DNA of 64,000 nucleotides, taken from Daejeonella oryzae DSM 19973. Its GTDB lineage: Bacteria; Bacteroidota; Bacteroidia; Sphingobacteriales; Sphingobacteriaceae. The notes under the pieces were generated by a model. It was not told the origin of the DNA and searched no databases. It saw nothing but the letters and a program-made list of their open reading frames with translations. Position 1 is the stretch's first letter. The number at the start of each line of letters is the position of its first letter. Where the stretch lies: NCBI RefSeq assembly GCF_000422945.1, contig NZ_AUHA01000002.1:62001-126000 (forward strand), read 5' to 3'. Of the stretch, positions 22,770 through 43,980 are shown piece by piece. The position numbers and the translations under genes were made by a program.

Positions 22770-23801
22770 ATGCTATCAAATAAACAGCTTGAGTCTATAG
22801 GCATATCCCAATGGCCTGACTACGGAAACACCTTCGACAATACTGACATTTTCATAGGCAATGGCTTTTCCATCAATCTATTTCAAGCACTATCCTATAA
22901 TAGCTTGTTTACTAAGTTTTCTGAAGATTGCGGATCTGATGTCATTAAATTGTTTAAAGCTTTCAATACATCAAATTTCGAATACGTAATGGAAGCTTTG
23001 AACAATACACAGCACGTTGGTACTATACTGGGTTTAGATTATTCTGCGATATCACCTGTCGTCGAAAGACTAAAAGAAGGGTTAATAAGAACGATTGGTG
23101 AGACTCACCCTTTGTATAGAGATGTTAACCCTTCAATATTCAGATCTCTAGCCGTAGACTTCATGCCATTTAGAAATATCTTTACGACTAATTATGATGT
23201 TTTCTTATACAAGATAATATTAGCCAATAACAACTTAATCGACCTTAAATTAATACAGAGTGCATCTTTTCAAGACGAGTTTTATGTCGATATGGGTAAG
23301 CACAGGTTAGGTATTGGTGATGATTATGAAAATTGCAGAAAAATATATTACTTACATGGAGCATTATTTTTATACCACGACCGTGGCATGACATATAAAT
23401 TTAGAAAAGGTGGTGAGGATGATGAATATATTAGGATGCTAAGAATGGAGATCGCAAACGGGAACATCCCTTTGTTTGTCTGTGAAGGAAAACCTGATGA
23501 TAAATTTAATGCTATAAATAACAACTATTATCTCAGATCCTGTGGTAATGCTTTAAAGAAAAATGACAAGTCTGACTTAGTAGTATATGGATCGGCTTTT
23601 CAATCATCCGATAAACATATTGTTGACTGGATAAACCAAGCAAATCCTAATAATTTAATAACATCACTGTATGTGCATGATAAGTCTGAAGAATCTTTAA
23701 AATCTGAGATTTCAAGGATTACAAATTTATTCGGTAACATAAGCGTTTCATTTTATGACTCTACCTCATTATTTAGCTTTAGCGAAAAACATAAATTTTA
23801 A
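22770..23801 (+). CDS. DUF4917-like (SIR2-like) protein, possible defence gene
   Basis: A 343-residue protein resembling DUF4917, a family with a SIR2-like Rossmann layout. The order of motifs supports this: IFIGNGFSINL (residues ~27-37), IFTTNYDVFLY (~137), KIYYLHGALFLYHD (~191) and VVYGSAFQSSDKHI (~271). SIR2-like proteins in islands often deplete NAD during phage attack; whether this one has that activity cannot be told, since catalytic residues are not firmly assigned. The gene stands alone, preceded by a LytTR-like repeat, in AT-rich accessory DNA left of the tRNA-Phe element. The family call is from memory of the motif pattern. Confidence 0.65.
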   Translation: MLSNKQLESIGISQWPDYGNTFDNTDIFIGNGFSINLFQALSYNSLFTKFSEDCGSDVIKLFKAFNTSNFEYVMEALNNTQHVGTILGLDYSAISPVVERLKEGLIRTIGETHPLYRDVNPSIFRSLAVDFMPFRNIFTTNYDVFLYKIILANNNLIDLKLIQSASFQDEFYVDMGKHRLGIGDDYENCRKIYYLHGALFLYHDRGMTYKFRKGGEDDEYIRMLRMEIANGNIPLFVCEGKPDDKFNAINNNYYLRSCGNALKKNDKSDLVVYGSAFQSSDKHIVDWINQANPNNLITSLYVHDKSEESLKSEISRITNLFGNISVSFYDSTSLFSFSEKHKF

Positions 23802-24136: not shown

Positions 24137-24246
24137 TAAAAACAAAAAAACCTCAGATTTCTCTGAGGTTTTTTTTGTGGTGCCAGCTGGATTCGAACCA
24201 GCGACACAAGGATTTTCAGTCCTTTGCTCTACCAACTGAGCTATGG
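24137..24246. repeat. Left 110-bp attachment repeat (terminator plus tRNA-Phe fragment)
   Basis: This segment matches 43867-43976 with two mismatches (24171 and 24174, in the T-run). It holds a terminator stem (CCTCAG...CTGAGG, 24151-24168) and 69 nt of tRNA-Phe. It marks one end of the integrated element. Confidence 0.9.
24178..24246 (-). pseudogene. tRNA-Phe fragment lacking its 5' end
   Basis: Positions 5-73 of tRNA-Phe(GAA) are intact, but the first four bases (GGTG) are replaced by unrelated sequence, so the acceptor stem cannot pair. No TANNTTTG promoter lies upstream, unlike the intact copy at 43908-43980. It is best read as the displaced attachment copy, not a working tRNA. Confidence 0.85.
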
Positions 24247-24304: not shown

Positions 24305-25423
24305 ATGTACACAGAACCCAAAATTATTACCAGTAATAGTCTTAAAACCAGGTCTTATATCACGTTTTACTTTAATGGGAAGAGAGTAAGAGAATTTAAC
24401 GGCCACAGACTGAATCTGAACATCAACCCAAATCATACTAAGTCTATACAGGATAGGGACAGGCTCCTGGAAGAGTTAAGGTTTAAACTGAAGAATGCTC
24501 TAAAAAACAACTCCTACCCTGCTGTTAAACCGGATACCGTAACTCCTTTAGCTTCCACTCTGACTGTACTGATGGATGTTTTAAACAGGAAATTGGATTC
24601 AGATCTCAGTGATTCCTATAAGACAGATCTTCGCTCTATTTATAATCACTTCATGGAATTCCTAACGGATGCGGAGAAAATCGGTTCTATAACAGAGATA
24701 ACACTTCCAAGGATTGAACTTTTCCTCACCCGATACAATTCCTCGGGCACCTATTACATGAATAAACGAAGAACTCTGGGCGTACTGTTTAATTCGGTAG
24801 GCAAAACCATTCAGAAAACGATAGAAGTAGTTCGGGAAACTTCTGTAAGGAGAACCACTTCAAAACTCCACAGGATCTATGAGAGAGAACAACTACTCAA
24901 AATCTTAGATTATCTAAAGACCCATCACTTTAACCTATATCTATGTTGTCTGATCAGTTACGGTTGCTTCCTGAGACCACATCAAGAAGTCAGATTACTT
25001 AAGGGAGTTCACTTCAAAAATGACTTTCGCGAAATACATCTCTCAGGAAGTGAGAACAAGGGTCGGAAAGTAAGAGTGGTGTATGTCCCGGACTATGTAA
25101 GATCTGTTTTACAATTGATACCCGGTTTACTACATGATACCAACTTGTTTACTTTATCTACAGATTATTATAACCCTTCTTACTTTAACACAGCCTGGTC
25201 GAGAGCCTGGAAAAATATGTACAAACAGGGTCTTGTACAAAAGAACCATACCATATACTCCTTTAGACATACCGCAGCAGTGGATGTTTTCCGGAGAACG
25301 AAAGATATCTACTTACTGCAAAAGCTTTTGGGTCATTCAACTATCGTAGTAACCCTAAGATACTTAAGAGGACTTGGTGAGTATAATTCAGAAGAACTCA
25401 GGGACGCCGCTCCAAGATTGTAA
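24305..25423 (+). CDS. Site-specific tyrosine recombinase (integrase)
   Basis: A 372-residue phage-type integrase, next to the left attachment repeat. An N-terminal arm-binding region (about 15-90) is followed by a SAM-like core-binding domain (about 90-180) and the catalytic domain. Catalytic residues visible: Arg I R224 in GCFLRPHQEV, Arg II R321 in IYSFRHTAAV (the usual His three residues earlier is Tyr), His in LLGHST and the nucleophile Y353 in TLRYLRG. It very likely inserted the element into tRNA-Phe. Family length is normal and the gene looks intact. Confidence 0.92.
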   Translation: MYTEPKIITSNSLKTRSYITFYFNGKRVREFNGHRLNLNINPNHTKSIQDRDRLLEELRFKLKNALKNNSYPAVKPDTVTPLASTLTVLMDVLNRKLDSDLSDSYKTDLRSIYNHFMEFLTDAEKIGSITEITLPRIELFLTRYNSSGTYYMNKRRTLGVLFNSVGKTIQKTIEVVRETSVRRTTSKLHRIYEREQLLKILDYLKTHHFNLYLCCLISYGCFLRPHQEVRLLKGVHFKNDFREIHLSGSENKGRKVRVVYVPDYVRSVLQLIPGLLHDTNLFTLSTDYYNPSYFNTAWSRAWKNMYKQGLVQKNHTIYSFRHTAAVDVFRRTKDIYLLQKLLGHSTIVVTLRYLRGLGEYNSEELRDAAPRL

Positions 25424-28915: not shown

Positions 28916-31696
28916 TTGAACCAAAATCCTGAACAAATATCCCGTGACAATATTGACCGTCAGCTAACACAGTGTGGATGGATCATTCAGTCAAAGAAAA
29001 ATATTAACCTTGCCGCAGGACTTGGTGTAGCAATAAGAGAGTATCAGACCGATGTAGGTCCTGCGGATTACTTACTATTTGTAGATAAAAAACCCGTTGG
29101 GCTGATTGAGGCCAAAAGAGAGGAAGAGGGATACCACCTTATAGAGGTAGAAGACCAATCCACCAATTACGCAAATGCGAAACTGAAATACTGTAATCAT
29201 GATCCGCTTTCTTTTGTATATGAAAGCACTGGGGTTATTACCCGTTTTACAGATTACCGGGATCCAAAACCTCGGTCAAGGGAGGTATTTACTTTTCATC
29301 GCCCGGAAACTTTTTTAGAGTGGATCAAACATGGCAGATCTTTACGAAGCCGTTTACAGGATATTCCCGATTTACCTACGTCCGGTTTAAGGGATTGTCA
29401 GGTGACAGCGATTCAAAATCTCGATGTCTCTTTTAAGGAAAGCAGACCCAAAGCACTGATACAAATGGCAACGGGTTCCGGAAAAACCTTTACTGCAATC
29501 ACTTTCGTGTACCGCCTTTTAAAATATGCGAAAGCAAAAAGAATTCTGTTTCTGGTTGATACGAAGAACCTGGGAGAACAAGCCGAGCAAGAGTTTATGG
29601 CCTATGTTCCGAATGATGATAATCGGAAGTTTACGGAATTATATGGTGCCACCCGTTTAAAGAGCAGTTTCATTACGCCTGATAATCAGGTTTATATCAG
29701 TACCATCCAGCGGATGTATTCAATCTTAAAGGGAACAGAGTTGGAGGAAAGTGCTGAAGAAACGAACCCTAATGAGTCCGGGTTTATATCGAAACAACCA
29801 CTTCCGGTAATATATAATGAAAGGATATCACCGGAGTTCTTCGACTTTATAGTCATTGACGAATGCCACCGCAGCATTTACAATCTTTGGAAACAGGTGC
29901 TGGACTACTTTGATGTATTCCAGGTCGGTTTAACAGCCACCCCTGATAACAGGACTTTTGCATACTTCAATCAAAACCTGGTGTCAGATTACGGCTACGA
30001 AAAGGCCGTCATTGATGGGGTATTAGTTCCATACAATGTATTTACTATACAAACCAAGATCACTAAGGATGGAAGCAAAATCGTTCTGGGCGAAAAAGTA
30101 GATAAGCGGGAACGATTAACCCGGAAAAAGTTTTGGGAAAACACAGATGAAGACATAGAGTATGCCGGTAAACAGCTCGATCAGGACATTGTAAATCCCA
30201 GTCAGATCCGTACGATCATCAGAGCCTTCAGAGAGAACCTACCATATATGTTTCCGGACCGAATGGATAAAGAGGGACTGTTTGAGGTCCCCAAAACGTT
30301 GATCTTTGCCAAAACCGACTCCCATGCAGAGGATATTATTGATATAGTTCGCGAGGAATTTGCGGAAGAAAACAAGTTCTGTAAAAAGATTACTTATAAA
30401 AGCGAGGAAGACCCAAAAACCGTACTTAGTCAGTTCAGAAATGATTACTATCCTCGTATTGCCGTAACTGTTGATATGATAGCGACCGGTACGGATATCA
30501 GACCCCTGGAAGTGTTGGTCTTTATGCGGGATGTAAAAAGTCGCAGTTACTATGAGCAAATGAAAGGGCGTGGTACCCGAACCTGTTCCTTAGAGCAGTT
30601 AAAAGCAACCGGTACTCCCGCAGCAAAATATACGAAAGATCACTTTGTAATCATTGATGCTATAGGAGTTGAAAGTACACAGAAAACCGATAGCAGACCT
30701 TTGGAGAAAGCACCCTGTATATCCCTTAAAGATTTGCTTCATCATGTTTCGATGGGTAATACTACCGAGGAGATCCTTTCCACTTTAGCCAACCGGTTGA
30801 TCAGGTTAGACAGGCAAATCAATGATAAGGAACGTATCCGGTTTGCGGAGAATGCAGATGGTTTTACCATCAATCACGTGGTCCGGCAGCTATTGAATGC
30901 TCATGATCCGGATACCATAGAGCAATTGCAACAAAAAGTTAGAAAACAGATGCTCGGTAGTTCCCCTGAAAGTATTGAACAAGCCATTGCAGAACAAAAG
31001 CAAGTGCTGATTAATACTGCAGTTGATGTGTTCAATAGCCCTGAGCTGAGAAACTTTATTGTTGTTGTGCGGAAAAAGTACGACCAGATCATTGATAACC
31101 ATAATATAGATGAAATTATCCAGATAGGATGGGTAAAAGATCAGATTGAAGCTGCTCAAACGCTTGTAAATAATTTCACACAGTGGATAAAAGATAACCG
31201 GAACGAGATTACTGCCTTACAGTTATTTTATGGTCAACCATACCAAAGAAGAGAGCTTACCTACAAAATGATTAAGGACTTATATGAAAAACTATCTACC
31301 AGTTCACCTAACTTAGCCACCCTCCCAGTTTGGAGAGCGTATGAGCAACTGGAACCTACCAATGGATCACCAAAAAATGAACTGGTAGCACTCGTAAGTC
31401 TGATCCGGAGAGTATCGGGTGTGGATACTTCTCTTACAGATTATGATAAAACGGTAGATAAAAACTTTAAAGACTGGTTATTTAAGCAGCAAGCCGGGAG
31501 TTTGAAATTTACCGAGGAGCAAATGACGTGGTTACGAATGATAAAAGATTACATAGCAAATTCCTTCCATCTTGAGAGGGAAGATTTTGAGTTAGATCCT
31601 TTCAATAAAAGTGGGGGATTGGGTAAGATGTGGCAGCTCTTTGGAGATAAAACGGATGGCATTATTGAGGAGTTGAATGAGGTATTAGCAGCATAA
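28916..31696 (+). CDS. hsdR: Type I restriction enzyme R subunit (nuclease/translocase)
   Basis: A 926-residue HsdR that translocates and cuts DNA lacking the cognate methylation. The N-terminal PD-(D/E)XK nuclease is visible as VGPADYLLFVDKKPVGLIEAKRE split around D and EAK near residue 62. The helicase core has Walker A QMATGSGKTF (~182), DECH box VIDECHRS (~312), GLTATP and QMKGRGTRT. The C-terminus ends GGLGKMWQLFGDKTD, as in the EcoEI/EcoAI (type IB) R subunits. The start is TTG, with no better ATG. It opens the operon; hsdS follows after 9 bp. Confidence 0.93.
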   Translation: MNQNPEQISRDNIDRQLTQCGWIIQSKKNINLAAGLGVAIREYQTDVGPADYLLFVDKKPVGLIEAKREEEGYHLIEVEDQSTNYANAKLKYCNHDPLSFVYESTGVITRFTDYRDPKPRSREVFTFHRPETFLEWIKHGRSLRSRLQDIPDLPTSGLRDCQVTAIQNLDVSFKESRPKALIQMATGSGKTFTAITFVYRLLKYAKAKRILFLVDTKNLGEQAEQEFMAYVPNDDNRKFTELYGATRLKSSFITPDNQVYISTIQRMYSILKGTELEESAEETNPNESGFISKQPLPVIYNERISPEFFDFIVIDECHRSIYNLWKQVLDYFDVFQVGLTATPDNRTFAYFNQNLVSDYGYEKAVIDGVLVPYNVFTIQTKITKDGSKIVLGEKVDKRERLTRKKFWENTDEDIEYAGKQLDQDIVNPSQIRTIIRAFRENLPYMFPDRMDKEGLFEVPKTLIFAKTDSHAEDIIDIVREEFAEENKFCKKITYKSEEDPKTVLSQFRNDYYPRIAVTVDMIATGTDIRPLEVLVFMRDVKSRSYYEQMKGRGTRTCSLEQLKATGTPAAKYTKDHFVIIDAIGVESTQKTDSRPLEKAPCISLKDLLHHVSMGNTTEEILSTLANRLIRLDRQINDKERIRFAENADGFTINHVVRQLLNAHDPDTIEQLQQKVRKQMLGSSPESIEQAIAEQKQVLINTAVDVFNSPELRNFIVVVRKKYDQIIDNHNIDEIIQIGWVKDQIEAAQTLVNNFTQWIKDNRNEITALQLFYGQPYQRRELTYKMIKDLYEKLSTSSPNLATLPVWRAYEQLEPTNGSPKNELVALVSLIRRVSGVDTSLTDYDKTVDKNFKDWLFKQQAGSLKFTEEQMTWLRMIKDYIANSFHLEREDFELDPFNKSGGLGKMWQLFGDKTDGIIEELNEVLAA

Positions 31697-31705
31697 CATT
31701 TAAAT

Positions 31706-32998
31706 ATGTACAAAAGTATTCCCGATAACTGGGAACTAGTTAAGTTAAGTAATTTATGTGACCTGCAAAATGGTTATGCGTTTAAGTCTAATGATTACGT
31801 AGAGCATTCTAGCACGTCGGTCTTTCGGATGAGTCAATTAAGGAGAGGTGGCAAATTGGATTTAGATCATAACTCCAAGTATTTACCAGACGTTTTCCGC
31901 TCGTTTTACGATTCCTATCTTTTAAGAGATGGAGACATAGTTATTGCTATGACCGATTTGGCTACTGAAACTAAGATCCTTGGGGTCCCCACATTCTTCA
32001 AGTCTGACGGGAGAAGCTTTCTCTTGAATCAACGGGTTGGGCGGTTCTTTAACATTAACCTAGACAGGTTGGATATCCAGTATCTAAGGTATGTGTTGTC
32101 TTCACCTACTATAAGAAATTACTATAAATCATTCGGAAAAGGAGCAGTACAAATCAACCTTAGTAAAGGGGATATATTAAACGTCACAATCCCCCTGCCT
32201 TCACTTAAAGCTCAACAAACGATAGTCTCGAAAATCGAAGAACTCTTTTCTGAACTGGATAAGGGTATAGAAAACTTAAAAGCAGCTCAGCAGCAGTTAA
32301 AAGTTTACCGGCAGAGTGTGTTAAAGTGGGCGTTTGAGGGAAAACTTACTAACGACAACGTAAACAATGGAGAACTACCAAAAGGCTGGGTATTCCTAAA
32401 AGTTCAAGATCTGGCAATAAAGATATTTGATGGTCCCTTTGGCTCAAATCTAAAAAGTATAGATTATAAACAAGAAGGTGTAAGAGTAATACGGTTAGAA
32501 AATATTGGAGTATTACAGTTTAGAAATGAGTATAAAACATATGTATCTGAAGAAAAATATTCCACTATTGATAAACATACTGTAAATGCGGGTGATATTA
32601 TATTTTCTTCTTTTATCATAGGAGAAATCCGCATAGTGGTACTTCCAAAAGGCATAACTAAAGCGGTTAATAAAGCTGACTGCTTTTGTATTAGAGCTAA
32701 TCCTGATAGAGTCAATGCCAGCTATCTTACTTACTATCTTTCAACTAAAGATGTCTACAACCAACTTGTAAAGGAAGTACATGGAGCTACAAGGCCAAGG
32801 ATCAATACTTCCCAGTTGAAAGCTTGTCAAGTACCAGTATGTGCTCTTGCGGAACAAAATAGAGTTATTCAGGAAATAGAGTCCAGACTATCGGTTGCTG
32901 ATAAAATGGAGGAAACCATTAACCAAAGTTTGCTTCAGTCTCAGTCCTTAAGGCAGAGTATCTTAAAGAAAGCATTTGAAGGGAAACTTGTTCAATAA
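31706..32998 (+). CDS. hsdS: Type I restriction enzyme specificity subunit
   Basis: A 430-residue HsdS with two target-recognition domains. TRD1 spans about 1-180 (IPDNWELVKLSNLCDLQNG), and TRD2 about 225-385 (LPKGWVFLKVQDLAIKIFDG). Each is followed by a conserved coiled-coil spacer: LFSELDKGIENLKAAQQQL with VLKWAFEGKL, and IESRLSVADKMEE with ILKKAFEGKL. It sets the bipartite recognition sequence of the complex. It sits directly after hsdR, while hsdM lies three genes further on, which is an unusual order. Confidence 0.93.
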   Translation: MYKSIPDNWELVKLSNLCDLQNGYAFKSNDYVEHSSTSVFRMSQLRRGGKLDLDHNSKYLPDVFRSFYDSYLLRDGDIVIAMTDLATETKILGVPTFFKSDGRSFLLNQRVGRFFNINLDRLDIQYLRYVLSSPTIRNYYKSFGKGAVQINLSKGDILNVTIPLPSLKAQQTIVSKIEELFSELDKGIENLKAAQQQLKVYRQSVLKWAFEGKLTNDNVNNGELPKGWVFLKVQDLAIKIFDGPFGSNLKSIDYKQEGVRVIRLENIGVLQFRNEYKTYVSEEKYSTIDKHTVNAGDIIFSSFIIGEIRIVVLPKGITKAVNKADCFCIRANPDRVNASYLTYYLSTKDVYNQLVKEVHGATRPRINTSQLKACQVPVCALAEQNRVIQEIESRLSVADKMEETINQSLLQSQSLRQSILKKAFEGKLVQ

Positions 32999-33972: not shown

Positions 33973-35751
33973 ATGAACATAACTCCAAACAAATTAAGTA
34001 TTGCTCAATTGTTTGCTACTCCGAATGAACAATTTATTGTACCTCCTTATCAAAGAAGATATGCATGGGGATTTCAACAATATTTGGCTCTGTATGAAGA
34101 TATAGACATGTTAAAAGATGATGATGGACATTTATTTGGAATGGTAATTCTACATACAAGTTTTCATACGGCAGGCTTAAATCAACCCGAGTTAGTCGAC
34201 GGACAGCAAAGACTTACTACACTCGTCATCCTCTTAAGAGCTTTGGCCGACGTATTTTATAACCTAGACAAATTTGAGAAGTCAACGGAAATAGAAAAAA
34301 TGTTATCCTGTAATGGTTTAGATGATGTGAAAAAACCAAAGATTAGATTGGGAGAACTGGATAACATTGATATAGAGAACCTGTTACTACATAAAAATTC
34401 TACAAATATTTCAAACCCAAATATCCTTGCTGCATATGAAAGTTATAGGGAATGGCTGAGTGAACTCACATTCGAAGAAGTTAATAGATTTTATTTTAAG
34501 TTGACAAATACAGCTGTTATCATCCGATTGGATGTAGGCATGGCCCAGGATGCCTATAAGCTGTTCGAGACCATTAATAACAGGGGATTGAGGTTGACTG
34601 CCACAGATGTAATCAAGAATTTCCTACTAGGTCACGCAGCTAAAATAAATTCTGACCATACCCTGGATAAAGTCAAATCCTTATGGTCTGAGATTATAAC
34701 AAATCTGGATCAACTGGATTCTGATGACTTTCTCCGACATTTTATGTGTGCCACGCTTAAACATAAGTTAAGCATGAGCAAGTTAATCTATGAATTCAAA
34801 AAACATTATCTCCGGAACGTCGAGAATGCCGACCTCCTGGGAGAGTATGGATACTATGATTATGGTGTGCAGGATGACGACGAGGATGACGTTGAGACAG
34901 GTTCTAACTCTGAAGATACTATCTCTAACAAAATTAGTATTATAGAATTCCTTACTGGTCTATGTCATTTATCTGAAACTTATAAACAAATTTCAAAGGA
35001 AACTTTCAAAGACGTAAAAATTAATAGAAGAATAAGCAATTTGAATAACATATTATCAAAGCCCTCGTACATTTTCTTAATGTATTTTTTGCAAGATCCA
35101 AAGTATGTACAAAAAACAAAGCTACAGGTTCTGGAATATCTTGAAAGTTTAATGCTTAGGAGACATATTTGTGAAAACAGGACCAGTGACAATGATGATA
35201 TATTTTCAAAATTGGTTCAATTCCTGGGCAGTGATGACTTATTAAATGAAATAAAACAATTTATTGGAGAGAATGACTACATGCCTGATGATGAAGATTT
35301 TGCCTTGAGCTTCCCTAAGTATCAATTTAAAGGAAGACTGGTTGACAGAGCAAAATATATCTTAGCTACAATTGAATATCATTTAAGAGGAAATACCAAT
35401 GAACTTATAGTTTCGTCAAGCGGTGAGGTAGAACTTGAACATATCATACCCCAAACAATTGAGGACAAAAAGTCAAAGATATTGTACGGTAATTGGGAAG
35501 AATACTTAGGAAGTTACGCCCTCCCAAAGCATAAAAAACATGTAAACCTGATCGGCAATATGACTTTATTAGGAGAGTCATTAAATATCCAAGCATATAA
35601 TAACCCCTTTGCAAAAAAGAAAAATAGCTACAAAAATTCTAGTTTTCTGATTACTTCCGAACTAGGCAAATCGAATGACTTTAAATTTAACAATGTCATA
35701 AAAAGAGGGGAAAGCTACTCTGAATTGGCCTTAAAAATATGGAAATCATGA
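33973..35751 (+). CDS. GmrSD-like DUF262/DUF1524 protein (type IV restriction-like)
   Basis: A 592-residue protein with an N-terminal DUF262 domain (VPPYQRRYAWGFQQY and the signature ELVDGQQRLTTLVIL near residue 75) and a C-terminal DUF1524 HNH nuclease (EVELEHIIPQTIED near 486, HVNLIGNMTLLGESLN near 526). Members such as GmrSD and BrxU hydrolyse NTPs through the DGQQR site and cut DNA with modified cytosines. An acidic insert (DDDEDDVETG) lies near residue 310. It overlaps hsdM by ATGA, so it is translated with the methylase and sits between S and M subunit genes. Confidence 0.88.
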   Translation: MNITPNKLSIAQLFATPNEQFIVPPYQRRYAWGFQQYLALYEDIDMLKDDDGHLFGMVILHTSFHTAGLNQPELVDGQQRLTTLVILLRALADVFYNLDKFEKSTEIEKMLSCNGLDDVKKPKIRLGELDNIDIENLLLHKNSTNISNPNILAAYESYREWLSELTFEEVNRFYFKLTNTAVIIRLDVGMAQDAYKLFETINNRGLRLTATDVIKNFLLGHAAKINSDHTLDKVKSLWSEIITNLDQLDSDDFLRHFMCATLKHKLSMSKLIYEFKKHYLRNVENADLLGEYGYYDYGVQDDDEDDVETGSNSEDTISNKISIIEFLTGLCHLSETYKQISKETFKDVKINRRISNLNNILSKPSYIFLMYFLQDPKYVQKTKLQVLEYLESLMLRRHICENRTSDNDDIFSKLVQFLGSDDLLNEIKQFIGENDYMPDDEDFALSFPKYQFKGRLVDRAKYILATIEYHLRGNTNELIVSSSGEVELEHIIPQTIEDKKSKILYGNWEEYLGSYALPKHKKHVNLIGNMTLLGESLNIQAYNNPFAKKKNSYKNSSFLITSELGKSNDFKFNNVIKRGESYSELALKIWKS

Positions 35752-37235
35752 GTAACAATTCTTCTAGTATAGTTAATAAAGTATGGGCATTCTGTCAGAC
35801 TCTTAGAGATGACGGAGTAGGTTATGGGGATTACCTGGAACAATTGACCTATTTACTGTTTTTAAAAATGGCAGATGAATATACCCGGCCACCGTACAAC
35901 AGAACGATGCCTATCCCTGCTGAATATAGTTGGGAAACCTTAACATCTAAAAGTGGAGCTGATCTCGAATCTCACTATACGATTCTACTTAGAGAGTTGG
36001 GACAGGATAAAGGTATTTTAGGTCAGATTTTTACTAAAAGTCAGAATAAAATACAGGATCCTGCTAAACTATATAAGCTGATCAGCCTGATCGATGCGGA
36101 GCATTGGGTGATGATGGGTGTAAAAGACAAAGGTGATATTTACGAAGGTCTTTTAGAAAAGAATGCAGAAGATACCAAGAGTGGTGCAGGGCAATATTTT
36201 ACCCCGAGACCTTTAATAAAGGTGATGGTAGAATGTCTTCAGCCGGAACCCATGAAAACCATTGCCGACCCTGCATGTGGAACAGGTGGTTTCTTTTTAG
36301 CTGCGTACGACTGGCTCACGGATCACAAGGATCTGGATAAAGAACAAAAGGAGTTTTTAAAATACAAGACTTTTCATGGAAATGAAATCGTCGCCGGAAC
36401 CCGGCGTTTAGCGTTAATGAACTTGTTCCTCCATAATATCGGTGACATTGATTCAGATACGGCAATTTCTCCAACTGATTCGTTAATAGCAGATGCTGGT
36501 ATCCGATATGACTATGTATTAGCTAACCCTCCCTTCGGAAAGAAAAGCAGCATGACTTTCACGAACGAAGACGGCGAGCAGGAAAAAGAGGATCTGACCT
36601 ATAACCGTCAGGATTTTTGGGTAACTACCAGCAACAAGCAACTCAATTTCGTCCAGCATATAAAATCTATGTTAAAGACCACCGGTCACGCAGCCGTGGT
36701 GCTACCGGATAACGTGCTGTTTGAGGGTGGTGTGGGTGAGACTGTACGGAAAAAGCTTCTGGAAACCGCCGACCTGCATACCATTCTAAGATTACCTACG
36801 GGGATTTTCTATGCAAATGGGGTAAAAGCAAACGTATTATTTTGGGATGCTAAGCCTTCCAGTAAGAGTCCCTGGACCAAAGAAGTTTGGGTTTACGATT
36901 ACCGGACGAATGTGCACCACACCCTAAAGAAGAATCCCTTAAAAATGGATGATCTAAAGGAGTTCATTACTTTATATAATCCCGGAAACCGTCATAAAAG
37001 AGCCGAAACGTTTAATGCAGATACAAATCCTGATGGTCGGTGGAGAAAATTTTCGTACGATGAAATCATAGCCCGCGATAAAACTTCCCTCGATATAACC
37101 TGGCTTCGGGACAAATCCCTTGCAGACCTTGACAACCTTCCGGATCCGGATGTACTGGCTGAAGATATAGCTGAGAATCTGGCAGCAGCATTGGAGAATT
37201 TTAGGACTATTGTTGTAAGTTTAGACTCAAAGTGA
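35748..37235 (+). CDS. hsdM: Type I restriction enzyme M subunit (N6-adenine methylase)
   Basis: A 495-residue HsdM. The N-terminal helical domain (VWAFCQTLRDDGVGYGDYLE) is followed by the SAM site DPACGTGGFFLAAYDW (~174) and the catalytic motif IV in VLANPPFGKKS (~259). It methylates adenine in the site chosen by HsdS and protects host DNA. I chose the ATG at 35748, which overlaps the previous stop as ATGA; an in-frame ATG at 35739 is possible. The M subunit is separated from S by three genes, yet all are in one tight operon. Confidence 0.93.
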   Translation: MSNNSSSIVNKVWAFCQTLRDDGVGYGDYLEQLTYLLFLKMADEYTRPPYNRTMPIPAEYSWETLTSKSGADLESHYTILLRELGQDKGILGQIFTKSQNKIQDPAKLYKLISLIDAEHWVMMGVKDKGDIYEGLLEKNAEDTKSGAGQYFTPRPLIKVMVECLQPEPMKTIADPACGTGGFFLAAYDWLTDHKDLDKEQKEFLKYKTFHGNEIVAGTRRLALMNLFLHNIGDIDSDTAISPTDSLIADAGIRYDYVLANPPFGKKSSMTFTNEDGEQEKEDLTYNRQDFWVTTSNKQLNFVQHIKSMLKTTGHAAVVLPDNVLFEGGVGETVRKKLLETADLHTILRLPTGIFYANGVKANVLFWDAKPSSKSPWTKEVWVYDYRTNVHHTLKKNPLKMDDLKEFITLYNPGNRHKRAETFNADTNPDGRWRKFSYDEIIARDKTSLDITWLRDKSLADLDNLPDPDVLAEDIAENLAAALENFRTIVVSLDSK

Positions 37236-37242
37236 GAATAGG

Positions 37243-38403
37243 TTGAAAAAGTTATATATCTACTTTGATGAGTATGGTCATTTCAGTCCCAACACTGGAA
37301 AAGTAGGATCTTTCTCACATTTTATCTATACCGGCCTGATTTTTCAAACTCTGGTAGATAAAAACTTGTTTGAGGAAAAAGCAACTGAGATACTTAAGAA
37401 AAGGTTTAATGGAAAGTTGTTCAAGGCCAATAAGGTTAATATTAAGTCCAAACTAGATATCTTAGCAGAGTTATTGAACCTTAACTGGACACTATCTATC
37501 CTGGTTGTAGACCAAACCAAAACTGAGGGTGCGTTAAAAGAGTACGAGAAGAGTTTTATCAAGTTCATTCAGAAAACCTTCTTGAAAGAAACAACTGAAA
37601 ACTATGACCGGTTTGAAATAAACTTTGACAGAACGGGTAGTGAACAATTCCAAAAGTCCCTGATAACATACATTGATCAACATGTGGTTAAAAGAGACCT
37701 ATTCAGTCAGGACAAATCATATACTTTACATGATGAGAAGAAAGACCAACATGTTCTGTTGTGTTTTACAGATCTTTTTACCAACCCTATTGGTCAGTAT
37801 TTTTGCAAAAGTCATTATAAGGAGGAAAGTAAACTCTTTCTAGAGAAAATAGTAGATCGCCTTCAAGTAACTCATTTCCCTTATAAAGCCCTCTATGACC
37901 CAACTTACTTAGGTACAAAAGATCCCGTAAAGGACTCCATAATACGGGATGCTGCTAACTCTTTAGCTGCTGAAAAGCTATTAGAGCTAAGCCATCACGA
38001 AGAGAAAAAAGAACACCAGATATTATTAGAATACGTTTTATTAGCAAATCATATAAATCCTAATCGCCTGCTCCCACTTCAGGTAATAACCGACCACCTC
38101 AAACATTACTTCCCGGGTATCAATGATGACAGAACTAAAACTATAATTACTGACCTAAGGAATATGGGAGTTATTATTATCAGTTCAAAAGGAAGGGCCG
38201 GATATAAGCTACCTAACACGCATGCGGATTTTGAGATGTTTTTTAAGAGATATCTTGATAGTATAGTACCCATGATAAAGAGAATAAACCAGTCTCATGA
38301 TATTCTGTTTAGAAAATCAAGGACTGACATTGATCTCCTTAACACAGTTTCTGATTCTAAACTACTTAGGGATCTTATAGCAGTAATTAAATCAGTAAAC
38401 TGA
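37243..38403 (+). CDS. DUF3800-like protein
   Basis: A 386-residue protein with the DUF3800 entry motif LYIYFDEYGHF (residues 3-13; usually Y-DESGd-), an RNase H-like fold family common in islands and phage-defence loci. A mid-protein block (NFDRTGSEQF, then HDEKKDQHVLLCFTDLF) fits the rest of the fold, and the last ~120 residues resemble a winged-helix tail (TIITDLRNMGVIIISSKGRAGYKL). Start is TTG at 37243, 7 bp after hsdM. Likely the last gene of the operon. Its molecular role is unknown. Confidence 0.75.
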   Translation: MKKLYIYFDEYGHFSPNTGKVGSFSHFIYTGLIFQTLVDKNLFEEKATEILKKRFNGKLFKANKVNIKSKLDILAELLNLNWTLSILVVDQTKTEGALKEYEKSFIKFIQKTFLKETTENYDRFEINFDRTGSEQFQKSLITYIDQHVVKRDLFSQDKSYTLHDEKKDQHVLLCFTDLFTNPIGQYFCKSHYKEESKLFLEKIVDRLQVTHFPYKALYDPTYLGTKDPVKDSIIRDAANSLAAEKLLELSHHEEKKEHQILLEYVLLANHINPNRLLPLQVITDHLKHYFPGINDDRTKTIITDLRNMGVIIISSKGRAGYKLPNTHADFEMFFKRYLDSIVPMIKRINQSHDILFRKSRTDIDLLNTVSDSKLLRDLIAVIKSVN

Positions 38404-38413
38404 TGTCGATGAA

Positions 38414-40165
38414 CTATTCTAAATCACCAAGAGTATTCTCAGTCTCCTCATTATCTGAAAGGTAACGTGTACTTAAAATTTGTCTGTCACCTAGTTTTGG
38501 CATTCTATCTATAAGATGACGTCTTTCTTCCACAGAAAATTCAACATTTAAATTGGTATTAAGTTCGTTATAGTCTTCCTCTACTGTCTGGGGCAGTTCA
38601 TCTAGGGACTTCTGTACTGAGAAGTCATCAACCTTTAATCCCACAGGAATTCCTGTTAACCTAAGGATCACACTTTCCATGATTTCTTTCACCTGTTCAA
38701 CATGCTCAGGGGTAGTTAAAATTGAGTCATGGATCGGTATAAGAGGAGCATCAGGAAGTCTGTTATTGATTTCCTTACAAACAATATCCAATATGATCCG
38801 GCTCTCCAGTCTTTGAAGCAATATAGGGAGATAGTTTTCATCATCTCTGGTTGACACCTCATTGAAAATCTCCATCAACTGAGCTTCAAGGGGAAACAAC
38901 TGTTTAAATCTTATAACTGCAGGATAATACTTCTTCTGAGGATCTTTAGAATACAAGATGATCATTATTAGTTTTTTAACTGTCGAACGGTCCTTAAAAA
39001 TAAGATCAGTTGTACAAAAAACCTTTTTCTCTGCCAGGATAAGGTCATTATAGAAATCATCCGTCCAAACTACCTTCAAAAAAGACAATTCAACCTGTTG
39101 ATTATCAGCACCTTTCTGTTTATCTACACACATAAGGATATCATTAATCTTAAACTTGATATTACCTTCTTGTATAGAGGTATGTAACTCATGGTATAGA
39201 GAATGTATATCCAAACCACTTTCTGACTCCTCATAGCTTTCCTTCATTAGAAGCCGGGTAAACAGATATGGCTGACTAGACTTAATATCTATCCCTACCA
39301 AAGGTTTGTTATCATACGTCAGAAACCCTCTCAACTCTTTTTTGAGGTTGGTAATCGAAGAATGAAGTCTCCTATCTTTACCAGTCCTACTTAACTTGAA
39401 ATCTCCTTCTTCTATTCTCTTGATGGCTTGCAAAGAATTGTTATATCGTAATATAGTTTTGTTTTTTATAATATCCCTATGTTCCGGTTTCTGGCTATCT
39501 GCATATTTTAAAAGGTCCTTACGGTAGAACTCGATATAATCATGAATTGCATCAACGTTAATCTTCAACATCCCGGGATCAAACCATTTAGTGATATGAG
39601 GGATCTTTCGTAGTTCTAAATTATTTCGCTCAACCATTTCGGTCCTCACTTTTAATACCCTGTCCTTAATAGGACCCTCTGGCATTTCCCTAACTTTAGT
39701 CTCCCCGGAATATGGTCCTGACAACCTATATCCTTTACTATACCTTCCTTTAGAGTAACTTTCGTCAACTTCAATTATTCCATTGTCACGGAGGAAATCT
39801 AGGGCCTCTGAATACCTTTTACCACACACACTGTTTAATATGGAAGAACTCAGCCGATAGTATCCGTTACTTTCAAAATCGTCCTTGACCTGCCTGTTAT
39901 CACTCCGATGAATAATGGTATGTAGAATATAGTAAGAGGCAGCTTTAAGAGTTTTTTTTACCGTTTCACTTACTTTCCTCTTCTCAAACAACAATTCATC
40001 AAAGTCATAAGCTAGTGGTATTGTCATTGGACAAACCTCCTTAACAATTCTCCCGGCTTTTCTTTTAGAGGAATGACTCATAGTGTTTTTATTGGATTCT
40101 CTAATATAAACCATTTCAGGGTTTGGACAATACTTGCGGGTTAGCGTATGAAGGTTTACCGTCAT
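38414..40165 (-). CDS. Polymerase-like protein with family-A/T7-type palm motifs (TV-Pol-like)
   Basis: A 583-residue protein with all three palm motifs of the family-A DNA polymerase / single-subunit RNA polymerase class. Motif A: LVGIDIKSSQPYLF (D293). Motif B: RSTVKKLIMIILYSKD (K397/K398, Y405). Motif C: PLIPIHDSILTTPEHV (H479, D480). The motif C triad HDS, and K...M...Y in motif B, are closer to T7 RNA polymerase than to Pol I (HDE). Residues ~75-155 look like a winged helix. This fits the TV-Pol family of mobile elements and Sputnik-like viruses, thought to be primase-polymerases. I used ATG 40165; an in-frame GTG at 40189 would add eight residues. It probably replicates the element. Confidence 0.7.
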   Translation of the reverse strand: MTVNLHTLTRKYCPNPEMVYIRESNKNTMSHSSKRKAGRIVKEVCPMTIPLAYDFDELLFEKRKVSETVKKTLKAASYYILHTIIHRSDNRQVKDDFESNGYYRLSSSILNSVCGKRYSEALDFLRDNGIIEVDESYSKGRYSKGYRLSGPYSGETKVREMPEGPIKDRVLKVRTEMVERNNLELRKIPHITKWFDPGMLKINVDAIHDYIEFYRKDLLKYADSQKPEHRDIIKNKTILRYNNSLQAIKRIEEGDFKLSRTGKDRRLHSSITNLKKELRGFLTYDNKPLVGIDIKSSQPYLFTRLLMKESYEESESGLDIHSLYHELHTSIQEGNIKFKINDILMCVDKQKGADNQQVELSFLKVVWTDDFYNDLILAEKKVFCTTDLIFKDRSTVKKLIMIILYSKDPQKKYYPAVIRFKQLFPLEAQLMEIFNEVSTRDDENYLPILLQRLESRIILDIVCKEINNRLPDAPLIPIHDSILTTPEHVEQVKEIMESVILRLTGIPVGLKVDDFSVQKSLDELPQTVEEDYNELNTNLNVEFSVEERRHLIDRMPKLGDRQILSTRYLSDNEETENTLGDLE

Positions 40166-40181
40166 GGATTGTTTTATAACA

Positions 40182-40309
40182 ACCCACACGGCCTATCGGA
40201 TCACTACAGAAGTATTATAATTATATCTTAATAGCTATACCTACTTAGTGTGGGTCAAAAATAATTTTTTTCCAAAAAAAATCCTGTGTGCAATACACTG
40301 TGTAGGATT
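40182..40309. other. Divergent intergenic region with inverted repeats, candidate origin/operator
   Basis: Between the polymerase-like gene (minus) and the 40402 gene (plus). ACCCACAC (40182-40189) pairs with GTGTGGGT (40248-40255), and AATCCT (40280-40285) with AGGATT (40304-40309), the latter enclosing two CTGTGT units (40284 and 40298). Such clustered repeats beside a replication-type gene fit an origin or autoregulatory operator, but neither is proven. Confidence 0.4.
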
Positions 40310-40401: not shown

Positions 40402-40746
40402 ATGGTAAAGATTAATGGCTATGTGATTCGTCAGAGAAAAAGCGACGGAGAATCATTTGTTTGTTTAGAAGTAGCAGGAGGAGTAGAAATTGTCCAAAGT
40501 CAGATCACAGGAAAAATGTATGCCACCATCAGGCACTGCAGTATCCCTTGTACGTTCGATGAAGCTACAGCAAAACAGATTGTAGGTAGTGAGCTGCCAG
40601 GAATTATTGTCAAACAGGAAACCGATCCTTATGAATATGTCAACAAAAAGACCGGAGAGGTGATGATGCTCAACTACTCCTACTCCTATCAGGCAAGTCC
40701 TCAATCTGAGTTGATTGGTAGTTCTAAGGATTTCCAGAGCGCCTAA
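40402..40746 (+). CDS. Hypothetical protein of the element replication module
   Basis: A 114-residue soluble protein. The pattern of short strands (GYVIRQRKSDGESFVCLEV, GKMYATIRHCSIPCTFD, GIIVKQETDPYEYVNKKTG) suggests a beta-rich fold, possibly OB-like, but no diagnostic motif is present. It is followed by its own terminator and then by the AAA ATPase genes, and faces away from the polymerase-like gene. A DNA-binding role is only a guess from context. Confidence 0.65.
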   Translation: MVKINGYVIRQRKSDGESFVCLEVAGGVEIVQSQITGKMYATIRHCSIPCTFDEATAKQIVGSELPGIIVKQETDPYEYVNKKTGEVMMLNYSYSYQASPQSELIGSSKDFQSA

Positions 40747-40827: not shown

Positions 40828-41638
40828 ATGGATTTAAAACAAGCACAACGAAAGTTTGCTAAAATCAGGATGGCTTTACAAGGTCCGTCCGGTAGCGGGA
40901 AAACCTATTCCAGCTTACTTTTAGCATATGGGATCACTAAGGACTGGAGTAAAATAGCAGTTATCGATAGTGAAAACCATTCCGCAGAGTTATATTCTTC
41001 TCTAGGACCATACTATGTCTGTCCGTTAACTAGCCCGTTTACACCGGAGCAGTATATGGATGCGATCAGGCTATGTGAGAAATCAGATATCGAAGTTGTA
41101 ATAATAGATTCGGTCACCCATGAGTGGGAACATCTGCTGGATTATCATGCTAACCTTCCCGGAAACAGTTTTACGGCATGGGCCAAAGTAACTCCGAGAC
41201 ACAATGCATTTATACAGGCGATCATGCAGTCGTCCTGTCATGTTATCTGCACGGTAAGAACTAAACAGGACTATATATTGGTAGAGAAGAATGGAAAACA
41301 GGTTCCCGAAGGTTGGGTTAAAGTCTATCCAGCGTGACGGGTTAGAATATGACTTTACATTAGTATTCGATTTGGACATCAAAAACTATGCATCTCCCTC
41401 AAAAGACCGCACCGGAATTTTCACAGGGAAGCCCCAGCATGTAATCACCGTATCTACTGGTGAAACGCTGTTCCATTGGTGCAATTCAGTAAGCCCAACA
41501 GCAGAAGACATTATTGAGGATATTTCAAAAACCCATACCCTACAGGAGCTACTGAAGCTTTTCAATCAAAACCCTGCATTACAGGGATCCCTTAAACACA
41601 AGTTTGAAGAACGAAAACTACAGCTTCAGGCTAAATGA
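40828..41638 (+). pseudogene. AAA-family ATPase gene interrupted by one frameshift
   Basis: Frame 1 (40828-41337) encodes 169 residues with Walker A ALQGPSGSGKTYSSLLLA and Walker B VVIIDSVTHEW, then runs out of phase after KNGKQVPEG. The family continues as ...VPEKVGLK.VQRDG; that continuation is present in another frame (KVGLKSIQRDGLEYDF, up to 41638). A net change of +1 or -2 bases near 41308-41320 explains this. The protein resembles RecA-like ATPases of Bacteroidota phages and elements, used in recombination or replication. It may be a true pseudogene, a sequencing error or a programmed shift. The last codon overlaps the DUF3871 start by ATGA. Confidence 0.75.
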
Positions 41639-42648
41639 ATTCACAAACCCTAAAACGCATAATCATGGAGAATACCATCATTCGACTGGATCAAGTCCAG
41701 ACTAACCCTTCTGTAAAAGGGCAACCCATCAGTTCCTTTATTACAGCCAACACAACATGGTGTGCTATTGAAGAACTCCGGCATATTCATCATATTCCTG
41801 TCTTTGTAAAAGATAATGAACCGGTCATCAGTCAAGTGGACTTTATCGATACCACTGTAAATCTGATCTCTGATCTTTTTTACGGAGAAACTATATCAAC
41901 CCCGCAGATTCGATGCTCCCATCCAATAAAAGGAAGGATTGCAGAAGCGAAACACAAATCAGCCAATGAGCTGGAAGAACGCGAAAAAACAATTTATTAT
42001 GAACGGATGGCTTTTGTAGTGGAGATACCCTCCATTACGGAAAAAATCAATGGTAACCTCTTATCTCTTACGGTGGGCGGCGTAAAAGCCTATAACCTGG
42101 ATAACCTGTACAATAGAAAAGGAGCAGATGAAAGTTTTAAAGTCTTTATCGGCTTCCAGAATAAAGTTTGCACCAATATGTGCGTGTGGTCTGATGGATT
42201 TATTGGCGATCTGAAAGTTAAAAATCGTCAACAGCTCAAGGCGTCCATAGGTATGTTAATACAAAGCTATTCCGCTGCAGAACATCTGAAGAACCTGAAA
42301 CAACTTTGTGATCACAGTCTAACCGAGCAGCAGTTTGCTCAATTGGTCGGAAGATGCCGGATGTATCAGCACCTGCCGAAATCCTACAGGGAAAAACTGG
42401 TTTCAGATACACTAGCAATGACCGATACCCAGATTGGCGCAGTTGTCAAAGATTTTTACCACGATCTGGATTTTGGAGGAGATCAGTATAATACCATCTC
42501 TCTATGGAACCTATATAACCTTTTTACAGGAGTGAACAAGACCACTTATATCGATAATTTTCTGGATCGATCAGTAAATGCCTACCAATTCGTTAAAAAC
42601 CTTCAATATGGTCTGGAAAACAAATATTCTAACTGGTTTCTGAACTAA
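41635..42648 (+). CDS. DUF3871 family protein
   Basis: A 337-residue protein of the Bacteroidota DUF3871 family, recognised by ITANTTWCAIEELRHIHHIPVF followed in this form by VKDNEPVISQVDFID (usually IPVFSKDNE.TIS) and the LTVGGVKAYNLDNLYN block. DUF3871 genes travel with phage-like and conjugative elements; the function is unknown, though position with an ATPase and polymerase-like gene hints at DNA processing. The ATG at 41635 overlaps the preceding stop; an internal ATG at 41665 is an alternative start. Confidence 0.8.
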   Translation: MNSQTLKRIIMENTIIRLDQVQTNPSVKGQPISSFITANTTWCAIEELRHIHHIPVFVKDNEPVISQVDFIDTTVNLISDLFYGETISTPQIRCSHPIKGRIAEAKHKSANELEEREKTIYYERMAFVVEIPSITEKINGNLLSLTVGGVKAYNLDNLYNRKGADESFKVFIGFQNKVCTNMCVWSDGFIGDLKVKNRQQLKASIGMLIQSYSAAEHLKNLKQLCDHSLTEQQFAQLVGRCRMYQHLPKSYREKLVSDTLAMTDTQIGAVVKDFYHDLDFGGDQYNTISLWNLYNLFTGVNKTTYIDNFLDRSVNAYQFVKNLQYGLENKYSNWFLN

Positions 42649-42649
42649 T

Positions 42650-42895
42650 ATGGACTATAACGAGAAGTTAACCTTTTATGATGAACGTACACTGCTGGTT
42701 GTCAATCCCAAAGGACTTCTAAAACAGCTTCATGTTCCGTTTCAGGTAAAGTGCATTATTCCTTCCGGCCTCATCAAGACGAACACTATGGTTTACGTTG
42801 ATGCAGTAGCTCAACACCAGAAGTTCAGGATTATGTACCGGGTACTCAACCAATGGATCCCGTACCAGCATTTTCAGATAATGATCAGGTATTAA
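42650..42895 (+). CDS. Hypothetical small protein
   Basis: An 81-residue protein starting one base after the DUF3871 stop, so it is probably co-translated. The sequence is beta-rich (LTFYDERTLLVVNP, NTMVYVDAVAQHQKFRIMYR) and resembles small proteins that sit next to DUF3871 genes in other elements, but I cannot name a family. No membrane helix or signal is present. Confidence 0.7.
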   Translation: MDYNEKLTFYDERTLLVVNPKGLLKQLHVPFQVKCIIPSGLIKTNTMVYVDAVAQHQKFRIMYRVLNQWIPYQHFQIMIRY

Positions 42896-43866: not shown

Positions 43867-43976
43867 TAAAAACAAAAAAACCTCAGATTTCTCTGAGGTT
43901 CTTATTGTGGTGCCAGCTGGATTCGAACCAGCGACACAAGGATTTTCAGTCCTTTGCTCTACCAACTGAGCTATGG
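43867..43976. repeat. Right 110-bp attachment repeat
   Basis: Second copy of the direct repeat at 24137-24246. It holds the terminator stem CCTCAG...CTGAGG (43881-43898) and all but the first four bases of the intact tRNA-Phe. The element carries its own copy of the tRNA 3' part and terminator, so insertion restores a full transcription unit. Confidence 0.9.
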
Positions 43977-43980
43977 CACC
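43908..43980 (-). tRNA. tRNA-Phe (GAA)
   Basis: 73 nt without an encoded CCA. The acceptor stem GGTGCC pairs with GGCACC, the D-stem begins GCTCAGTTGG, the anticodon loop is CTGAAAA with anticodon GAA, and the T-loop GGTTCGAATCC is standard. It is the intact copy and the insertion target of the element. A terminator lies just beyond its 3' end. Confidence 0.97.

Follow-up and report, generated by a model that had tools for sequence, protein, structure and literature searches.

A probable replicative polymerase of the TV-Pol type on an integrative element at a tRNA-Phe gene of Daejeonella oryzae

Introduction

Which polymerase family does the minus-strand gene at 38414-40189 belong to, and does its product copy the mobile DNA on which it resides? 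The question was raised by an earlier note on a 64,000-nucleotide stretch of Daejeonella oryzae DSM 19973 (contig NZ_AUHA01000002.1, positions 62,001 to 126,000), which is designated here as the window and to which the positions without a locus label refer. In this note the gene product was described as a palm polymerase that resembles the TV-Pol family. The members of this family were predicted to be primase-polymerases (Iyer, Abhiman and Aravind 2008; PMC2579912). The published set comprises, among others, Sputnik V13 and proteins from Psychroflexus, Polaribacter, and Cytophaga, and thus already includes Bacteroidetes; the phage Ma-LMM01 is also named there (PMC2579912). As of 2020, the sole such polymerase to have been tested was CcPol, a close relation of Pol I that works with a partner protein. 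Its primase and polymerase activities were demonstrated with the protein MP, and it primes only with MP (PMC7581432).

Results

The element and its integration site

The polymerase gene is part of an island of 19.7 kb, which lies between two direct repeats of 110 bp that are 98% identical and cover tRNA-Phe (Table 1). Together with the integrase gene and an island-free congener, this repeat confirms the tRNA-borne island postulated in the earlier note. In the congener G013, the left-flank genes, the tRNA-Phe, and the right-flank gene all fit into 11 kb, and the genes of the island are absent. The element of the window encodes no helicase except HsdR.

In a further congener (G011; L203, 8683-9147), the C-terminal remnant of a related polymerase was found beside the same tRNA-Phe, which suggests that this site is a shared integration hotspot. 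Note that the GmrSD-type gene of the cargo is located between hsdS and hsdM of the type I operon. A candidate defence gene (DUF4917, PADLOC PDC-S21; 22770-23801) is located just outside the left att site.

Table 1. Features of the integrative element and its target gene in the window.
Feature	Position	Strand	Evidence
attL, 110 bp repeating the 3' part of tRNA-Phe and the hairpin downstream of it	24137..24246	.	98% identical to 43867-43976
Tyrosine recombinase (integrase), adjoins attL	24305..25423	+	PF00589 E 3.3e-9
Cargo: type I restriction HsdR	28916..31696	+	PF08463, PF04851, PF04313
Cargo: HsdS specificity subunit	31706..32998	+	PF01420 E 4e-25
Cargo: GmrSD-type restriction protein in hsd operon	33973..35751	+	PF03235 E 4e-31, PF07510 E 3e-21; PADLOC HEC-06/Orf5
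Cargo: HsdM methyltransferase	35739..37235	+	PF02384 E 1e-67
Cargo: DUF3800 protein	37243..38403	+	PF12686 E 1.7e-6
Family-A polymerase, best called TV-Pol-type	38414..40189	-	ORF, conserved motifs, AF2 model, fold matches, TV-Pol profile match
Small protein (114 aa), predicted OB fold (SSB-like)	40402..40746	+	AF2 model, PDB matches
Sak4-like RecA-fold ATPase, split by frameshift	40828..41638 (40828-41337 + 41291-41638)	+	PF13479 E 1.9e-14
DUF3871 protein	41635..42648	+	PF12987 E 3e-109
Small conserved protein, relatives in polymerase loci	42650..42895	+	6 matches in ORF set, window included
attR, within and beside tRNA-Phe	43867..43976	.	110-bp repeat
tRNA-Phe (GAA), integration target	43907..43980	-	ARAGORN

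Start and conserved residues of the polymerase

The polymerase frame is open for 591 codons, beginning with a GTG at 40189 of the minus strand. The earlier note had let it start at the first ATG (40165); the likely start is the ATG at 40081 (555 aa), with which the start of the nearest relative aligns. The residue numbers used here are counted from this ATG; D265 and D452 correspond to D293 and D480 in the numbering of the note, where both positions were given correctly. The palm motifs listed there, namely GIDIKSSQP, VKKLIMIILYSK, and PIHDSILTTPEHV, are all contained in the open reading frame.

In 19 of 19 polymerase sequences, which were retrieved by whole-sequence search without the use of a motif, the residues P22, R238, D265, S269, Q270, Y344, K369, P397, Q423, E426, and D452 are invariant. 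Both Asp residues (D265, D452) as well as R238, K369, Q423, and E426 are essentially invariant across 83 sequences. Since some of these 83 sequences were collected by scanning for the pattern of motif A or of motif C, the conservation of these two motifs is inflated, whereas that of R238, K369, Q423, and E426 is not. The resulting pattern is the one of family A, with an Arg before the first palm strand and an Asp at the strand's end. The fingers helix contains R-x3-K and an aromatic residue at K+8, and a Gln precedes motif C with its His-Asp. Position 365 of R-x3-K is occupied by Arg in 35 and by Lys in five of the 41 members, and K369 is found in 41 of 41. A conserved Asp is among the published fingers features of TV-Pols; an inspection of the alignment identified no invariant Asp in the fingers columns of the present family. 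At position Asp+5 of motif A, a Gln is present in every sequence having this column; provided that motif A is correctly read without a gap, the sugar choice of the enzyme may differ.

Predicted fold

An AlphaFold2 (AF2) model of the polymerase was built from a 41-sequence alignment; its mean pLDDT is 79.9 and its pTM 0.80. The best PDB matches determined by means of Foldseek were Taq, Klenow, and apicoplast Pol A, with E values of about 5e-5. The 50 PDB matches listed are family-A DNA polymerases, the only exceptions being three mitochondrial RNA polymerases toward the bottom of the list. Superposition with VIA-align yielded a Z of 17.7 for Pol theta (rmsd 3.2, 267 residues), of 16.6 for T7 DNA polymerase, and of 16.4 for Klenow. 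The palm fold expected in the earlier note is thus present rather than missing in the model, and as modelled the protein is a family-A polymerase.

The predicted thumb is formed by the antiparallel helices 176-196 and 199-224, directly before the hairpin. The first 150 residues of the model comprise three helices, followed by two short strands. For this N-terminus a winged-helix-like structure had been claimed; the HTH_45 winged helix family is matched weakly (E 0.023) by two of the 41 members, which makes such a domain plausible.

Relationship to TV-Pol, Pol I, and T7 RNA polymerase

For the classification of the polymerase, family profiles were compared by means of hhalign. The score of the polymerase profile was 40.6 against the TV-Pol profile, which is thin and consists of five sequences, two of them near-identical. 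The corresponding null values were at most 18.0 for 60 column-permuted profiles, 14.8 for the reversed profile, and 13 to 19 for unrelated family controls. The scores for Pol I (23.2) and T7 RNA polymerase (23.9) are equal within noise. The TV-Pol match begins in the N-terminal domain and ends at motif C; within it, the Arg, motif A, and the Q-x2-E stretch are aligned with their counterparts. It substantiates the TV-Pol relation suggested in the earlier note, and on the basis of this thin profile the polymerase is most appropriately classified as belonging to a Bacteroidota branch of TV-Pol and not as a T7-RNA-polymerase-like enzyme. The note had also placed the protein closer to T7 RNA polymerase than to Pol I. 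This is true for the letters HDS of motif C alone; it agrees neither with the profile scores nor with the structural matches, which are almost all DNA polymerases. Kinship with T7 RNA polymerase was rejected because its profile score is no better than that of Pol I.

Among the TV-Pols used, MAP_030 of Microcystis phage Ma-LMM01 is located beside transposases and was assigned to the family by motif and context; the others come from plasmids of Polaromonas and Calothrix, on which they adjoin a serine recombinase or RepA gene. A search for further TV-Pols in viral contigs and plasmids yielded nothing beyond nearly identical copies in Microcystis phages and a further plasmid of Polaromonas. A Polaromonas TV-Pol had no match in 198 Bacteroidota genomes, a result that is uninformative by itself. 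On a 7.2-kb Polaromonas plasmid (L186, 37-2497), the TV-Pol gene directly precedes repA and is near parA. This plasmid constitutes a simple system for testing TV-Pol function.

Occurrence of the polymerase family

The window polymerase has no meaningful match in Pfam and NCBIfam. PF00476 (DNA_pol_A) matches none of the 41 members, while the genome's own Pol I reaches 545 bits, and an exonuclease domain is absent from all 41 members searched. PHROG 4756, a family of unknown function, is matched weakly. In sequence searches of the PDB, neither the protein nor its profile retrieved a relative.

The family was detected in 17 of 295 Bacteroidia genomes, the window's own included, and is distributed patchily across many taxonomic families. 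Pattern scans deduced from a tight alignment contributed a further 43 loci from genomes and 16 from viruses, and single-protein pattern scans of the genome and viral collections added no polymerase relatives. Viral relatives occur in phage genomes of 595-735 kb (LR756501, LR756503, LR756511, LR756504). A further relative is encoded on a Hymenobacter plasmid, which also possesses a Rep3 initiator and ParA; the polymerase is therefore not the sole replication protein of this plasmid. A tyrosine integrase family is located at most 9 kb from the polymerase in 44 of 74 loci. It was identified by clustering, as the profile of the window's own integrase was too divergent to find the integrases of other loci.

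One of the 41 members carries a NUMOD4/HNH homing endonuclease, which is not an editing domain, and a long C-terminal polymerase extension in L073 (11459-12058) looks GIY-YIG-like. Homing endonucleases may target the polymerase gene. The member from a metagenome-assembled genome labelled Rhizobium (L088) groups with Chitinophagaceae; this genome is probably mislabelled or mixed.

Genes facing the polymerase

According to the earlier note, the polymerase faces a DUF3871/AAA module across a repeat-rich gap. The polymerase is indeed divergent to both genes, but the first gene across the gap codes for the small OB-like protein and not for the AAA protein. Repeats occur in the gap at chance level only, and between the polymerase and the OB-like gene neither iterons nor tandem repeats were found. 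The AF2 model of the 114-aa protein (pLDDT 85.6) has the order E-E-E-H-E-E, that is, an OB-type barrel of five strands and one helix. SSB, PriB, and PrgE, a plasmid protein, account for most of its best PDB matches, all of which are weak (Z at most 4.3). From this model, an OB fold is predicted. The Sak4-like ATPase matches phrog_1366 and the Sak4-like phrog_124. Near position 41300, its gene passes from one frame into another, while in relatives it is a single open reading frame; the island's copy may therefore be defective, leaving the element unable to complete its cycle, or the assembly may be wrong at this gene.

The co-occurrence of these genes was counted over 75 non-duplicate polymerase loci. 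The ATPase and DUF3871 are each present in 17 and the OB protein in 13 of them; 21 loci contain any of the three. In 14 of 17 cases, the ATPase gene is divergent from the polymerase. DUF3871 is rare (10 of 247 genomes), and its co-occurrence with the polymerase is therefore far above chance. However, the set of SSB, Sak4, and DUF3871 exists also without the polymerase (L180, L181), and most polymerase loci lack the set. On a quick tree of the polymerases, at least five changes of the partner-module label have to be assumed on supported branches, compared to 15 when the labels are shuffled. The main clade carrying the module has 12 members, and the window is paired with L024 outside of it. The association is therefore clustered, yet it was gained or lost more than once. 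A description of the partner set was not found in the literature searched, which was covered incompletely; DUF3871 was mentioned there in a single, unrelated paper.

SSB-helicase cassettes in relatives

In L043 (92-4040), the polymerase gene is directly preceded by two DUF3127/SSB genes and directly followed by the gene of a DUF5906 (D5-like) helicase, all on one strand. In L030 (3939-8618) and L032 (10888-15294), a related SSB and the same helicase family are combined with a full Pol I-type polymerase, and both loci contain a copy of the TV-Pol-type family elsewhere. The exchange between L043 and the other two loci hints at a functional equivalence of the TV-Pol-type and the Pol I-type polymerase, as judged from one contig. 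It was from an exchange of this kind that a replicative function of TV-Pols was first deduced. L043 is the single contig on which a D5-like helicase adjoins the polymerase, and no more SSB-polymerase-helicase cassettes were found around related copies in G227. On the phage contigs L128-L130, a DnaB-type helicase is located about 4.5 kb from the polymerase. These cassettes, together with the OB-like, Sak4-like, and DUF3871 genes, represent a replication-type neighbourhood and are in line with the role in element replication considered in the earlier note.

Discussion

It is probable that the exonuclease-free, active-looking family-A polymerase of the TV-Pol type serves to copy the 19.7-kb integrative element at tRNA-Phe. 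A replicative polymerase of the element is the best reading of the data, and the enzyme is perhaps also a primase-polymerase. In the corresponding cycle, the integrase would excise or insert the element at the 110-bp att repeats, and the polymerase would copy its single-stranded or opened DNA, which the N-terminal winged-helix-like domain might help to hold. By analogy to the role of MP for CcPol, the OB-fold protein would supply single-strand binding and may permit primer-free synthesis. The Sak4-like ATPase would pair or anneal strands, and DUF3871 would have some auxiliary role. A more specific proposal, namely that the polymerase, the OB-fold protein, the strand-pairing Sak4-like ATPase, and DUF3871 constitute a helicase-free replication or recombination module of Bacteroidota mobile elements, which starts and carries out the copying of the element, and that the Gln replacing the sugar-gate Glu allows the polymerase to make its own primers, is doubtful.

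The composition of the neighbourhood might also point to a recombination-coupled enzyme for gap filling or repair. Such a polymerase would extend the 3' ends in D-loops or in annealed strands made by the Sak4-like ATPase, and would help the element to integrate, to repair, or to acquire DNA without priming or replicating it. The partners in the window and in 16 other loci, where a Sak4-like ATPase is in many cases joined by an OB-like protein but not by a helicase, would suit this role, and an N-terminal domain plus palm is compatible with primer extension only. However, most polymerase loci lack a Sak4-like gene, and L043 combines the polymerase with a D5-like helicase behind two SSB genes, as in replication cassettes. 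A role restricted to gap filling or repair is therefore rather unlikely.

Much less credible are two other functions. A T7-like single-subunit RNA polymerase that transcribes the genes of the element would agree with the HDS in motif C, with the replacement of Pol I's ribonucleotide-excluding Glu (Asp+5) by Gln, and with the yeast mitochondrial RNA polymerases low in the Foldseek list (E 7e-4). Yet the profile score to T7 RNA polymerase does not exceed that to Pol I, the top structural matches are DNA polymerases, and the partner proteins belong to DNA replication or recombination, which makes a transcriptase most improbable. Due to its position next to the type I and GmrSD restriction genes and the DUF3800 gene, the polymerase might alternatively be part of the island's anti-phage cargo. 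PADLOC, however, finds no match for the polymerase, OB, Sak4-like, or DUF3871 proteins, and it is the integrase and HTH genes that are constant neighbours of the polymerase, whereas the restriction genes are not. A function in defence is accordingly hardly to be expected.

The replicative polymerase proposed here represents a branch that is distant from Pol I, escapes Pfam and NCBIfam, is present in Bacteroidota elements, a plasmid, and phages, and has a candidate OB-fold partner. With this branch, it can be examined directly whether TV-Pols in general are capable of priming. Moreover, the family assignment permits the naming of many unannotated genes.

With the published TV-Pols (PMC2579912), the polymerase shares an exonuclease-free family-A core with two palm Asp residues and an N-terminal extra domain, the absolutely conserved hairpin Arg that precedes the first palm strand (here R238), and R-x3-K. 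The genes of TV-Pols are described as fused to or adjacent to a D5 helicase, or as coding for an N-terminal domain and lying with an integrase, resolvase, or transposase near restriction operons. Further common features are the Q-x2-E before motif C, which is also found in the Ma-LMM01 and Polaromonas proteins, a thumb of two antiparallel helices (predicted here), the lack of a fused nuclease domain, and the proximity of a lambda-type integrase and restriction operons (here the integrase and the hsd operon). In contrast, motif C is HDS here and QHDG in the TV-Pols compared; the OB-like, Sak4-like ATPase, and DUF3871 partners are unmentioned in the text of PMC2579912; and a D5-like helicase adjoins the polymerase in one relative only. 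DNA polymerase I (PF00476) has the same palm, fingers, and thumb fold and the same catalytic landmarks, but the polymerase studied here has no Pfam match, lacks the exonuclease domains, and contains HDS instead of HDE. T7 RNA polymerase has in common with it the HDS of motif C and the two-metal palm, whereas the profile affinity is no greater than to Pol I.

The CcPol-MP and PolA-SSB primases of SCC-like elements (Bebel 2020, PMC7581432; Rice 2023, PMC10061031) likewise combine a family-A polymerase with a small OB-fold protein, which is predicted here, on an integrative element with restriction genes; in L043 a helicase is present too. Their polymerases are close to Pol I and have exonuclease remnants, whereas the polymerase of the window is missed by the Pol I profile. 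CcPol keeps at Asp+5 the ribonucleotide-excluding Glu of Pol I (E710; PMC7581432), and a Gln is found at that place here. The known systems come from Bacillota, where they are in most cases accompanied by a large serine recombinase and in all cases by a helicase (PMC7581432, PMC10061031); a D5 or DUF927 helicase is absent from the element of the window and was seen in L043 only. Finally, the OB-like gene of the window, whose product has weak structural matches, is divergent from the polymerase beside it and not in the same operon.
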